64,000 nt of DNA. Source: Methylobacterium sp. J-030 (lineage in GTDB: Bacteria; Pseudomonadota; Alphaproteobacteria; Rhizobiales; Beijerinckiaceae). Of this stretch, positions 8,426-45,580 are shown piece by piece (the first letter of the stretch is position 1; every line of letters starts with the position of its first letter). The stretch covers positions 1 to 64,000 of the forward strand of contig NZ_JAKSYM010000208.1 of assembly GCF_022829545.1 (NCBI RefSeq), written 5' to 3'. A program made the translations under genes and the position numbers. The notes under the pieces are model-generated. The model was not told the origin of the DNA. It searched no databases and worked only from the letters and a program-made list of their open reading frames with translations.

Positions 8426-8905
8426 TCACGCGCCGATGACGCTCATCACGATCTCCCGCCGGTGCGGCCGGTCGCGGTGCTCGATCAGGTAGATCCCCTG
8501 CCAGGTGCCCAGCGCCAGCCGGCCGTCGACCAGGGGAATGCTCAGGGCCGAATCGGTCACCAGCGTGCGGATATGGGCCGGCATGTCGTCCGGCCCCTCG
8601 GCGCCGTGGACGTAGCCGGCGTTGCGCGGCGCGAACCCGTCGAGCGCGGTCATCAGGTCGGTCTGCACGTCGGGGTCGGCGTTCTCCTGAATGGTCAGCG
8701 AGGCCGAGGTGTGCCGGCAAAAGACCGTCACCAGCCCGTCCCGGAGGCCGCTGTCGCGGACGAACGCCGCCACCGCGTCGGTGAAATCCGTGAATCCCTG
8801 TCCCGCCGTCGCGATGGTGAGCCGCGCGCTCGCGTGGCGCTGCACCGCACCGGCGGCCAGCATCTCCACCGAACCGATCTTTCCTTGCCCCCTGCCCTGC
8901 CTCAT
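8426..8905 (-). CDS. YjbQ family protein (UPF0047)
   Basis: A 159-residue protein of the YjbQ family, small trimeric proteins with reported thiamine-phosphate-synthase-like side activity but no settled role. The family signature FCRHTSASLTIQENADP lies in the middle and GTWQGIYLIEHRDRPHRRE near the C-terminus. The ATG at 8905 overlaps the stop of the DNA ligase gene (ATGA), so the two are translationally coupled. The first 15 or so residues are not conserved-looking, and an internal Met could be the real start. The position in a DNA-repair operon is the only functional hint. Confidence 0.88.
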   Translation of the reverse strand: MRQGRGQGKIGSVEMLAAGAVQRHASARLTIATAGQGFTDFTDAVAAFVRDSGLRDGLVTVFCRHTSASLTIQENADPDVQTDLMTALDGFAPRNAGYVHGAEGPDDMPAHIRTLVTDSALSIPLVDGRLALGTWQGIYLIEHRDRPHRREIVMSVIGA

Positions 8906-10803
8906 GCGTCCGTCTCCAGCATGGTCGCGCCGGGCGCGACCGCGCGCTCGCCCCGGGCGAGGATGCGTTCCAGCACGTCGATCCGGTCGGCCTCCGCGGG
9001 GGGCTTGTCCCAGCGGATCCGGCTGACCCGGGGGAAGCGCATCGCCACCCCCGACTTGTGCCGGGTCGAGCGCTGTACGCCCTCGAAGGCGATCTCCAGC
9101 ACCAGACCGGCCTCGCGCCCGTACGCGACCTCGCGGACCGGACCGAACCGCTTGGTCGTGTTGTTGCGGACGTAGCGGTCGAGCTTGGCGAGTTCGGCGT
9201 CGGTGAAGCCGTGATAGGCCTTGCCCACCGGCACCAGCTCGTCGCCGCCCTCGGGGGCGGCGCGCCAGACCCCGAACGTGTAGTCCGAGTAGAAGGACGA
9301 GCGCTTTCCGTGACCGCGCTGGGCGTACATCATCACGGCATCGACGACGTGCGGCTCGCGCTTCCACTTCCACCACGGCCCCTTGGGGCGGCCCGGCAGG
9401 TAGGGGCTGTTGCGGCGCTTGAGCATGATGCCCTCGATCGCCTCGGCATCGTCGCCCGCTCCCACCGAGGCCGGATCGGCCCGGGCGGCGGCGAGCGCCT
9501 CCCAGTCGGCGAAGGGCACCAGCGGCGAGATGTCGATCCGCGCATGGTCGAGCCGCGTGACCAGGGCCTCCAGCTTCTCCCGGCGCTCCATGAAGGGGTC
9601 GGCCCGCAGGTCGCCGCCGTCGAGGGTCAGCAGGTCGTAGGCGCGCACATGGGCGGGGAATTCTTCAAGGAGTTTCGGCGTGACGGCCTTCCGGTTCAGG
9701 CGCTGCTGGAGCACGTTGAAGCTCTGCACCCGGCGCTCGCGCAGGATCAGCAATTCGCCGTCGAGGGTGCCGGTGAAGGTGATCGCCTCGGCGAGATCCG
9801 GGAACGCCCCGGTGATGTCCTCGCCGGTGCGGGAATAGACCTTTCCGATCTGCTGCCCGGTCCGGTCCGGACCGCCGACGAGCTGGACGCGGATGCCGTC
9901 CCATTTCCACTCGGCCGAGAACGCCTCCGGTTCCAGCTTCTCCAGATCGGCCTCCTCCTCGATCGGGTGGGACAGCATGGGCGGCCGGAACGGCGCCGGG
10001 TTCAGGGTCTCGGGCCGCGCGGCCCGACCCTCGACCCAGGCGAACAGGGTCTCGAAGGGCGGCGTCAGCCCGTGCCAGACTTCCTCCACGGCGTCGGCAT
10101 CGTGACCGCCCAGCGCGCCGACCGCCGTCTTGGCGAGCCGTGCCGAGACGCCGACGCGAAGGTTGCCGGTGACGAGCTTCAGGAGCGCCCAGCGCCCGGT
10201 CTCGTCCAGGGCATCGAGCCAGTCGGCGAGGTGGCGGGGGAGTTCGCGCTTGGGGATGGTCGCCAGCGTCTCCACGACCTCGGCCAGGGTCGGGACATGC
10301 GGCGGCGGGTTGTTGTGGCCGATCCCCGCGCGCGCATCCCCTCCCCCCTGTGCGGGGGAGGGTGGCCCCCGAAGGGGGTCGGGTCGGGACGAAGTCCCGC
10401 GAGAGGGGAGCGACGGTGCAGAAAACGCCTCGGCCTTCCCATCGGGCGAGCCCGTCCCTGAACCGTCGCTCCCCTCTCCCCCCCTGCTGCACAGGGTACC
10501 CTCCCCCGCAGTGGGGAGAGGGAGATCCCGTGGCGACGGCCAGATCAGCGCCGTGGTCTCGGCGAGATCGCCCACGTAATTGTGCGAGAGCCGGAACAGC
10601 ACCGGGTCGATCCGCTCCTCGACCAGCCCCCGGATCAGGGCCGGCTTGGCCTCGCGAAAGCTCAGCGTCCCCGTCATGGCTCCGAGGGCGTAGCCGCGCT
10701 CCGGGTCGGGCGTGCGTGAAAAATAGTCCTGCAGCATCCGCAGCTTGGCATTGCGGCGCGGCTCGTAGGCGAGGCGGTCGAGGAGGTGGGCGAAGTCGTT
10801 CAC
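8902..10803 (-). CDS. ATP-dependent DNA ligase (LigC-like, cisplatin-damage-response type) with in-frame palindromic insert
   Basis: A 633-residue ATP-dependent DNA ligase. The nucleotidyl-transfer motif I is EWKWDGIRV, with the adenylated lysine at K300. Later motifs include GELLIL, EGIMLKRRNSPY and WWKWKRE. An alpha-helical DNA-binding domain lies in front and an OB domain behind. The GTG start at 10803 overlaps the exonuclease stop (GTGA), giving translational coupling. Residues about 90-156 (rich in Gly, Ser and Pro) are encoded by a roughly 200-bp palindromic repeat and interrupt the N-terminal domain. The frame is kept throughout, so the protein is probably made with a disordered loop. 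Without the insert the protein would be about 565 residues. Confidence 0.9.
   Translation of the reverse strand: MNDFAHLLDRLAYEPRRNAKLRMLQDYFSRTPDPERGYALGAMTGTLSFREAKPALIRGLVEERIDPVLFRLSHNYVGDLAETTALIWPSPRDLPLPTAGEGTLCSRGGEGSDGSGTGSPDGKAEAFSAPSLPSRGTSSRPDPLRGPPSPAQGGGDARAGIGHNNPPPHVPTLAEVVETLATIPKRELPRHLADWLDALDETGRWALLKLVTGNLRVGVSARLAKTAVGALGGHDADAVEEVWHGLTPPFETLFAWVEGRAARPETLNPAPFRPPMLSHPIEEEADLEKLEPEAFSAEWKWDGIRVQLVGGPDRTGQQIGKVYSRTGEDITGAFPDLAEAITFTGTLDGELLILRERRVQSFNVLQQRLNRKAVTPKLLEEFPAHVRAYDLLTLDGGDLRADPFMERREKLEALVTRLDHARIDISPLVPFADWEALAAARADPASVGAGDDAEAIEGIMLKRRNSPYLPGRPKGPWWKWKREPHVVDAVMMYAQRGHGKRSSFYSDYTFGVWRAAPEGGDELVPVGKAYHGFTDAELAKLDRYVRNNTTKRFGPVREVAYGREAGLVLEIAFEGVQRSTRHKSGVAMRFPRVSRIRWDKPPAEADRIDVLERILARGERAVAPGATMLETDA
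10337..10535. repeat. Palindromic repeat (family A) inserted in frame in the ligase gene
   Basis: The element is about 200 bp. Its outer arms are inverted, near-perfect copies: C-rich/G-rich at about 10338-10363 and again at about 10496-10524. Inside them, 10401-10417 and 10462-10478 are a perfect 17-bp inverted repeat (gagaggggagcgacggt). The whole could fold into one long hairpin. It carries no stop codon in the ligase frame and is close to a multiple of three in length. Similar C-run/G-run palindromes occur in gaps at 1-34 and 45488-45580. Confidence 0.8.
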
Positions 10804-11858
10804 GCGGCCGCCTCCGTCTCGGGGCCGGGCGCTTCGGGGCCAGGCTCGGCCTCGCCGTCGTCGCCATAGCCCAGCAGATGCAGCGGCTTCGCCCGGATTC
10901 CCTCCGTCCCGCACCAGTGGACCAGCGCGTCCTCCTGCCCGTGCGTCACCCAGACCTCCCCGGCGCCGGTATCCCGGATGGTGCGGCACAGGTCCGGCCA
11001 GTCGGAATGGTCGGAGATCACCATCGGCAGCTCCACGCCCTTCTGGCGGGCGCGGGCGCGCACCCGCATCCAGCCGGAGGCGAAGCAGGTCACCGGATCG
11101 GGGAATTTTCGCGACCATAGGTCCTGCATGGCCGAAGGCGGGCAGATCACGATGGCGCCGTGCAGGTCCTTGCGCTCGGCCGCCACAACCTTCGGCGTGT
11201 CGCCCAGCGGCAGGCCCTCGTCCTTGTAGAGTGCGGTAAGCTTTTCCATCGCCCCATGCAAATGAATCGGCCGGTCCCAGCCCTCCTCGCGCAGCAGCGC
11301 CATCACCCGCTGCGCCTTGCCGAGCGCGTAGGCGCCGACGATGTGGGCGCGCTCCGGAAACAGCGCCACCGAGTCGAGCAGCTTGCGCACCTCGCCGCGC
11401 GTGTCGGGATGGGTGAAGACCGGCAGACCGAAGGTCGCCTCGGTGATGAACACGTCGCAGGGCACCACCTCGAAGGGCAGGCAGGTCGGGTCCGGCGCCC
11501 GCTTGTAATCGCCTGAGACCACCACCCGGGCGCCCTCGCGCTCGATGGCGATCTGCGCCGAACCGAGGACGTGGCCCGCAGGCGCGAAGCGCACGGTGAC
11601 GTCGCCGATGCGGATCGGCTCGCCGAGACGCGCCTCCTGCCGGTTTTGGCAAAAATCCGCGCCATAGCGCACCGCCATGATCCGCAGGGTCTCAGGGGTC
11701 GCCAGCACGTGGCCGTGGCCGGAGCGGGCATGGTCGGCGTGGCCGTGGGTGATCAGCGCGCGCTCCACCGGCCAGGTCGGATCGACGTGGAAGCCTCCGA
11801 GGGGACAGTAGAGGCCCTCGCGGGTCAAGGTGAGGAGATCGCTGGCGCGTATCGGCAT
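10800..11858 (-). CDS. Ligase-associated DNA exonuclease (metallo-beta-lactamase / beta-CASP fold)
   Basis: A 352-residue nuclease of the family found with LigC-type ligases, related to SNM1/Pso2 and CPSF73 enzymes. The metal-binding THGHADHARSGH (HxHxDH) is near the N-terminus, GDYKR and the acidic/His residues of SDHSDWPD belong to the beta-CASP part, and THGQEDALVHW lies near the C-terminus. It probably trims damaged ends before sealing by the ligase encoded just downstream. The ATG at 11858 opens MPIRASDLL. The C-terminal 20 residues are Pro/Glu/Ala-rich. It heads a coupled three-gene operon (exonuclease, ligase, yjbQ). Confidence 0.92.
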   Translation of the reverse strand: MPIRASDLLTLTREGLYCPLGGFHVDPTWPVERALITHGHADHARSGHGHVLATPETLRIMAVRYGADFCQNRQEARLGEPIRIGDVTVRFAPAGHVLGSAQIAIEREGARVVVSGDYKRAPDPTCLPFEVVPCDVFITEATFGLPVFTHPDTRGEVRKLLDSVALFPERAHIVGAYALGKAQRVMALLREEGWDRPIHLHGAMEKLTALYKDEGLPLGDTPKVVAAERKDLHGAIVICPPSAMQDLWSRKFPDPVTCFASGWMRVRARARQKGVELPMVISDHSDWPDLCRTIRDTGAGEVWVTHGQEDALVHWCGTEGIRAKPLHLLGYGDDGEAEPGPEAPGPETEAAA

Positions 11859-45457: not shown

Positions 45458-45487
45458 CACGGATGAACGGACGAGAAGAGGCGGTTC

Positions 45488-45580
45488 CGCGGCTCTCCCT
45501 CCCCCCCCCGTGGGCTACGATGTCCACACATATCAGAACGAAGCGCGGGTTCCCCTCTCCCCGCGCGCGGGGAGAGGGGA
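45488..45580. repeat. GC-rich palindromic repeat (family A)
   Basis: 45551-45580 is a perfect 30-bp palindrome (15-bp arm tcccctctccccgcg), and 45488-45510 contains a related C-run. The element resembles the one in the ligase gene. It lies in the 329-bp gap 45343-45671 between truB and the Lpd-like gene, which has no other visible feature except the tandem repeat. Confidence 0.75.

Follow-up and report, generated by a model that had tools for sequence, protein, structure and literature searches.

A palindromic repeat in frame in a variable linker of a Methylobacterium DNA ligase, and other repeat families at the same site

How can a palindromic repeat lie inside a protein-coding gene without breaking it, and why at one particular spot? 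This question is raised by a DNA ligase gene in a 64,000-nucleotide stretch of DNA from Methylobacterium sp. J-030 (contig NZ_JAKSYM010000208.1), referred to here as "the window". An earlier note on this DNA proposed that a palindromic element lies in frame within the ligase gene, and that a normally intergenic element had moved into the gene and been tolerated. Here, we describe the element, its copies elsewhere, the fate of the same site in related ligases, and the possible explanations.

The gene (positions 8905 to 10803, minus strand; 633 codons, GTG start, no internal stop in the ORF list) encodes a cisplatin damage response ATP-dependent DNA ligase, matching TIGR04120 at 831.5 bits in a profile search with a curated cut-off of 400. 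The nearest named ligases are from Methylobacterium. The gene lies directly downstream of that of its partner, a ligase-associated exonuclease (10800 to 11852, minus strand; TIGR04122, 481.6 bits), which overlaps the ligase start by 4 nt. Comparison over 80 ligases and a predicted structure place a linker, the hotspot discussed below, at codons 90–161 (window 10536 down to 10321, minus strand), i.e., 72 residues between P89 and G162 that join two helices of the DNA-binding domain. The palindromic element (10339 to 10524) makes up most of this linker, and the reading frame runs through it with no stop, as the earlier note had claimed. That note put the added loop at about 67 residues; the loop is real, but its size differs, since the linkers of close insert-free relatives (L082 and L083) have 11 residues, giving a net gain of ~61 aa. 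In a structure predicted from 66 sequences, residues 100–162 have pLDDT <50 and are flanked by confident helices; a previous prediction from 33 near sequences was poor overall (pLDDT 39.6), and the rerun replaced it. The linker is thus predicted to be disordered.

The element, which we call type A, is 76.6% identical over 192 columns to a consensus of 22 copies from the same genome. Its outer arms (10339 to 10363 and 10498 to 10522) are 25 nt each and 88% complementary. Between them, two small hairpins can be read from the sequence and are paired in the computed fold, C5-GAA-G5 at 10366 to 10378 and GGGAC-GAA-GTCCC at 10386 to 10398. The perfect 17-bp inverted repeat reported in the earlier note is present, with arms at 10401 to 10417 and 10462 to 10478, and sits within a 35-nt pair that is 80% complementary. 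The element strand folds at −78.8 kcal/mol, versus −52.35 ± 3.37 in shuffled sequences (z −7.85; none of 200 as good). The consensus of the 135-nt type A copies has one long and one short side hairpin, and in copies that we inspected, e.g., L010 and L019, these are 18 nt and 13 nt; such unequal hairpins mean that the palindrome has polarity. Type A copies are found in both orientations relative to the ligase copy.

The element is a multicopy repeat. In the window's own genome, a DNA search returned 91 matching segments that merge into 40 places, a lower bound because 40 of 150 candidates were scored. The distance from anchor to anchor has a mode of 135 nt, found in 22 of the 38 copies with both anchors, the ligase copy included. 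The window insert is 80–82% identical to the best copies elsewhere in the genome and 73–82% identical to inserts in sister ligases. By an ORF-based rule, three of the 40 places are in frame in genes: the ligase, an ImuB-type Y-family polymerase (L011), and CobG (L020; TIGR02435, 239.7 bits with a cut-off of 234.8). The other 37 are not in frame in any gene under this more sensitive rule, which supports the proposal that a mostly intergenic element entered a gene and was tolerated, as do the insert-free linkers of L082 and L083. A stricter rule, with the coding potential of the flanks judged by a codon model trained on 27 window ORFs, gave one of 40, the ligase; in other genomes it found only ligases in frame, plus three of 12 candidate loci chosen for long open frames. 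A rule of the strict type gave 0/20 in each of two further genomes (G013 and G021) and flagged CobG in the window's genome; the ORF-based rule was then adopted and yielded the ImuB and CobG cases, and one in CobN.

Two further palindromes in the window were linked to the ligase element in the earlier note. Bases 1 to 25, at the contig end, match the terminal stem of type A exactly (100% over 25 nt); the palindrome at 45487 to 45578, by contrast, is not type A and belongs with other families described below, being 74% identical over 93 nt to type H and 96% over 28 nt to the stem of type C, in a stretch with no coding signal. Type A copies also lie within ~300 nt of the starts of seven contigs of this genome (C3, C29, C90, C280, C291, C341, and C370), which probably means that contigs break at these repeats and that copies are undercounted. 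Selection for lengths divisible by three in intergenic copies was considered and rejected: 33 of 38 lengths (ligase copy included) are multiples of three, an excess that can be explained by shared ancestry because 22 copies share the modal length.

What happens at this site in other ligases? We ranked 399 loci from GTDB genomes by similarity to a query carrying an insert and kept the top 80; one locus lacks its N-terminus (L110) and was dropped, and the remaining 79, together with the window, give 80 readable linkers from Methylobacterium, Methylorubrum, Microvirga, and one MAG. None of the 80 linkers interrupts the reading frame. Linkers of ≤21 aa are found in 36 ligases, 22–49 aa in four, and ≥50 aa in 40, most of the long ones spanning 50–80 aa, with a maximum of 122 aa; since the ranking biases the sample toward inserts, 40 long linkers of 80 is not a rate. 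Same-genus loci, which overlap this set, give a similar range (27 of 29 readable: 10 of ≤21 aa, three of 22–35 aa, and 14 of ≥50 aa). Folding separates 34 of the 45 linkers of ≥60 nt from shuffled sequences at z ≤ −3.0 (40 shuffles each), while decayed linkers such as those of L050, L061, L065, and L074 miss this threshold. An ordinary loop, with conserved sequence in all homologues and no palindromic DNA, is therefore not what the alignment reveals; as the earlier note had anticipated, the insert is absent from many relatives. Beyond these genera, 12 of 13 ligases from other families of the order have short linkers, and the linker DNA of the thirteenth (G055), which is long, has 26 matching segments in that genome, counting itself. 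The 120 relatives of a Rhodoligotrophos ligase that were listed, from 8000 scored, are all 526–549 aa long.

The long linkers are not all filled by type A. We sorted the inserts into types A to H, labels set by regular expression on the peptide plus inspection, which gave 24 rows of A, six of B, three each of C and D, one of E, six of F, two of G, and four of H; three rows are counted in two types, two are unclassified, and 32 are short. At the DNA level, B and H are 80% identical over 114 nt, F and G share stems of 37–38 nt, F and H share 50 nt, and the G055 element shares 63 nt with A; no further similarity between families was found at E 1e-3. At least five groups therefore lack overall similarity to one another: A, B/H, C, D, and F/G. 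Types A, B, C, and D are each multicopy at length in a host genome. Type B has 72 segments in Methylobacterium sp. J-068, the best places ~95% identical, and no matches in the window's genome. Type C has 67 matches in Methylorubrum rhodinum and eight in the window's genome. At E 1e-8, type D has 35 matches in M. brachythecii and 51 in Methylorubrum rhodinum, and none in seven other genomes searched. Type F has 27 matches in Microvirga sp. VF16, where the non-self matches are pieces of ~35–60 nt, and 50 in Microvirga arsenatis, including several of ~150–160 nt. Type E was not confirmed as a repeat, with only a self-match in its own genome at 1e-8 and one partial match in another (G063). Unrelated repeat families thus occupy one site. 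The entry of an element into the gene stands as the earlier note described it; the event was not a single one, because unrelated families filled the same spot.

Inserts at this site turn over. A tree of the 80 rows was built without the linker by a quick method, with stars on 15 of its 77 inner branches. It requires at least 29 changes of type label, 16 switches between long and short linkers, and, within the 40 long rows, at least 14 changes of family; these counts do not separate gain from loss. Shuffled labels need 42–45 changes (ten values shown), so type partly follows descent, and a single old insertion may explain some of the type A pattern. Individual cases illustrate the changes. The protein bodies of L067, with a type B insert, and L072, with a 19-aa remnant of A, are 98.8% identical. 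Type H is nested within A ends in L080, L081, and L037, and the L058 linker holds two elements in a row. The insert of a sister species, M. phyllostachyos (L036), matches the window insert at 0.90 when inverted versus 0.74 forward (82%, inverted, by BLAST). Public proteins named M. brachiatum include one insert-less form and two insert-bearing forms (P0001, P0004, and P0006). The genomes with the most type A matches (122 in the window's genome, 100 in G013, 77 in G021, and 46 in G010) all have a type A ligase; however, G011 and G007, with 34 and 32 matches, have short ligase linkers of 13 and 10 aa, so abundance alone does not decide.

Composite linkers were also seen in passing. Two different elements follow one another in linkers of 103 and 122 aa (L137 and L139, in G034 and G004), and the M. 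soli linker (L048, 1768–1983) carries a B/H-type stem twice in tandem. Three ligases known here from peptides only (P0067, P0092, and P0105) have an extra insert of ~20 residues that seems to interrupt a hairpin of the element already present, as if the loops of existing repeats were landing sites for small ones.

Selection acts differently on the two parts of the protein. The dN/dS of the ligase body is 0.039–0.128 in 17 pairs, about 0.06, and that of the insert is 0.45–1.24 in 11 pairs; by this computation, the body is under purifying selection and the insert drifts, near-neutrally. Frame usage varies as well. B/H is translated in two different frames in ligases L048 and L080, and type A is read in CobG in a frame other than that used in the ligase, indicating that the peptide itself is not what is kept. 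In ImuB, type A enters in one frame and leaves in another. In all ten type A ligase inserts checked, both ends fall in the same codon phase; a single old insertion, inherited since, would also give this pattern. A special coding frame of type A was examined and rejected: of 73 strand-copies, 38 have no stop in frame 0, 30 in frame 1, and 48 in frame 2; the consensus can be read through in one orientation only, in frames 1 and 2; and the CobG and ligase frames differ.

Other proteins host the same repeats, and ImuB, pyruvate dehydrogenase E2, and a glycosyltransferase exhibit turnover similar to that of the ligase linker. In E2, a type A insert lies between the lipoyl and E3-binding domains in two genomes (G007 and G031), another element fills the linker in G002, and the window's own genome has a decayed A-like linker (L243, C176:10159-11535) that is absent from the list produced by the genome DNA search. 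At one spot in the glycosyltransferase, G013 has type A, G002 a B/H-like element, and G017 a decayed one; eight other genomes have a short loop there, and three loci from two genomes were unreadable. Because a frame-0 protein query brought up the E2 and glycosyltransferase cases, they are biased to frame 0. ImuB homologues have A-like, B/H-like, and short linkers; the name comes from homologues, the match in NCBIfam being a weak one to a DNA polymerase IV model (25.8 bits with a cut-off of 389). One ImuB homologue (P0299) departs from the family after PAAW with another repeat-like peptide, and its C-terminus looks frameshifted. CobN of J-068 carries type B. By the ORF rule, in-frame copies number 3/40 for the window's genome, 2/21 for type B, 1/21 for type D, 1/21 for type A in G013, and 0/20 for type A in G021. 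For B and D, each set consists of the ligase together with 20 of the places listed; those for G013 and G021 come from a frame-1/2 query with the ligases of these genomes left out, and the single G013 case is the known glycosyltransferase, included as a control, with none of the other 20 places in frame.

We consider it very probable that, overall, a type A repeat was captured in a tolerant loop of the ligase, a loop that sieves lineage-specific repeats. A multicopy, mostly intergenic repeat would have inserted where the DNA-binding domain has a naturally variable loop, and we infer that it is translated in the cell as a disordered Gly/Ser/Pro-rich linker and is neutral for ligase activity. Because the loop would tolerate extra residues, in-frame and stop-free inserts would survive selection on the ligase, and the loop would collect whichever palindromic repeats are present in each lineage, with inserts gained, inverted, nested, partially deleted, lost, or replaced by other families. 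The repeats presumably move, with most landings intergenic and the few in-frame landings in flexible linkers retained.

An alternative, possible but on balance unlikely, is that type A entered the gene once, in an ancestor close to the base of the main Methylobacterium/Methylorubrum clade, and that replacement in place by recombination or nesting, many losses, and few new insertions followed. This would account for the spread of type A over distant parts of the tree in the one codon phase, for A-like remnants in the short linkers of L062, L072, L075, and L093, and for the nesting inside A ends. However, types D, E, and F/G show no visible A ends; within Microvirga, F/G inserts are found alongside linkers of 16–21 aa; deep Methylobacterium lineages have short linkers; and at the glycosyltransferase site, eight genomes have a short loop and three others carry A or B/H-like elements. 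A preference of the repeats for some DNA or transcription feature of these genes, with tolerance secondary, strikes us as improbable: the ligase spot is used repeatedly, and the glycosyltransferase and ImuB also show reuse of one spot, but these sites are protein linkers, as expected under tolerance, and no target-site duplication or shared flank signal stood out in the 28 of 40 copies usable for this check (flank repeats at the observed level arose in 31 of 200 shuffles). Nor do we favor a reading of the linker as a functional module, e.g., a partner-binding or DNA-contacting tail whose composition is selected and for which repeats are a convenient source. Unrelated sources do give Gly/Ser/Pro/Glu-rich peptides of similar length, mostly 50–80 aa, and two of the host proteins are DNA-repair proteins, yet the dN/dS of the insert, the 36 ligases without a long linker, and the uniform 526–549 aa of the 120 listed relatives in another clade make it quite improbable. 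Finally, the assembly is a draft of 411 contigs, several ending at type A copies, which could point to an assembly or annotation artefact; long in-frame linkers are present in many separate assemblies, including the single-contig G010 (67 aa, L112), and we regard an artefact as extremely improbable.

With capture in a tolerant loop as the preferred reading, non-coding repeats look like recurring raw material for flexible protein linkers. A broader proposal, speculative and rather doubtful, is that certain interdomain linkers of Methylobacteriaceae, notably in repair proteins (ligase and ImuB), are landing pads toward which insertion is biased, with lineage-specific palindromes entering again and again and then becoming inverted, nested, or eroded, making intergenic repeats a routine source of disordered sequence. 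In-frame capture of palindromes is best known from Rickettsia and Wolbachia; here, it occurs in large genomes of free-living bacteria. The many species, several families, and natural relatives with short linkers make its rate, frame choice, neutrality, and decay measurable. Methylorubrum extorquens is a laboratory model, and proteins of that name (P0091, 100 member sequences) have an apparently decayed insert in the same ligase, so its effects are directly testable. Annotators should be aware that long linkers in these proteins may be non-homologous even when they align.

Several elements of this picture are already in print, namely Rickettsia palindromic elements (RPEs), WPE-like inserts, REPs inside repair genes, and a recB case involving a shared site. 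The titles and abstract openings that we searched contain no report of in-frame palindromes in Methylobacterium. As far as our searches go, two aspects are new: Methylobacterium genes contain these element families, and, across a bacterial family, at least five families of repeats have come to occupy a single protein linker.

The known systems differ in how closely they resemble the ligase element. Bacterial MITEs, in excerpts of two papers, are small, non-coding, multicopy elements with terminal inverted repeats and ORF fusions (PMC2229807, PMC10969869). Type A has terminal inverted repeats; the check described above gave no clear target-site duplication. One 400-bp MITE, MiniMdi3, is mentioned for the M. 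extorquens genome in the portion of PMC2680597 consulted. Br-REP1 and Br-REP2 of Bradyrhizobium, as excerpted, are fast-evolving palindromic repeats of intergenic regions and 3'-UTRs (PMC5082802); like the elements here, they are palindromic repeats of alphaproteobacteria, and the two groups of hosts are related, but Br-REPs are described outside coding sequence. Type D resembles Br-REP2 by eye only, in a CATTCCGG..-type stem. Many intragenic GTAG/CGTC REPs lie in DNA-repair genes, including the O. terrae DNA ligase, and REPs occur at about the same recB site in two Xanthomonas species, according to an excerpt of PMC3733652. Both systems thus place palindromic repeats inside genes, repair genes among them. 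REPs, however, are 20–40 bp long with a GTAG or CGTC tag, whereas our element is ~185 bp, with the modal anchor-to-anchor length of 135 nt. The sequence GCGCGTCT precedes the outer arm in several type A copies and is missing in many. The RAYT transposase reported for GTAG REPs (Y1_Tnp, PF01797) gave no match at E 1e-3 in the window's genome, with five of 14 control genomes positive. Also unlike the REP cases, the ligase hotspot spans dozens of species and at least five families.

The closest parallel is with RPEs, described in excerpts of PMC2229807 and PMC10969869 as palindromic elements of ~105–150 bp that lie between and inside genes and are tolerated in frame in conserved proteins, and with WPE-like regions, which a partial text of PMC4224334 places in addA, addB, and priA. 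In common with these, the elements here are palindromic, have genic and intergenic copies, would be translated in frame, and belong to several families per genome. Type A has terminal inverted repeats, with 25-nt arms, in a longer element (~185 bp versus 105–150 bp), and it has in-frame genic as well as intergenic copies. Unlike RPEs, it resides in large, GC-rich genomes of free-living hosts, few of its copies (3/40) are genic, one protein linker is used by several unrelated families across species, and its sequence is apparently a different one. By analogy, the ligase element appears to work like RPEs, the likeness being one of behavior.
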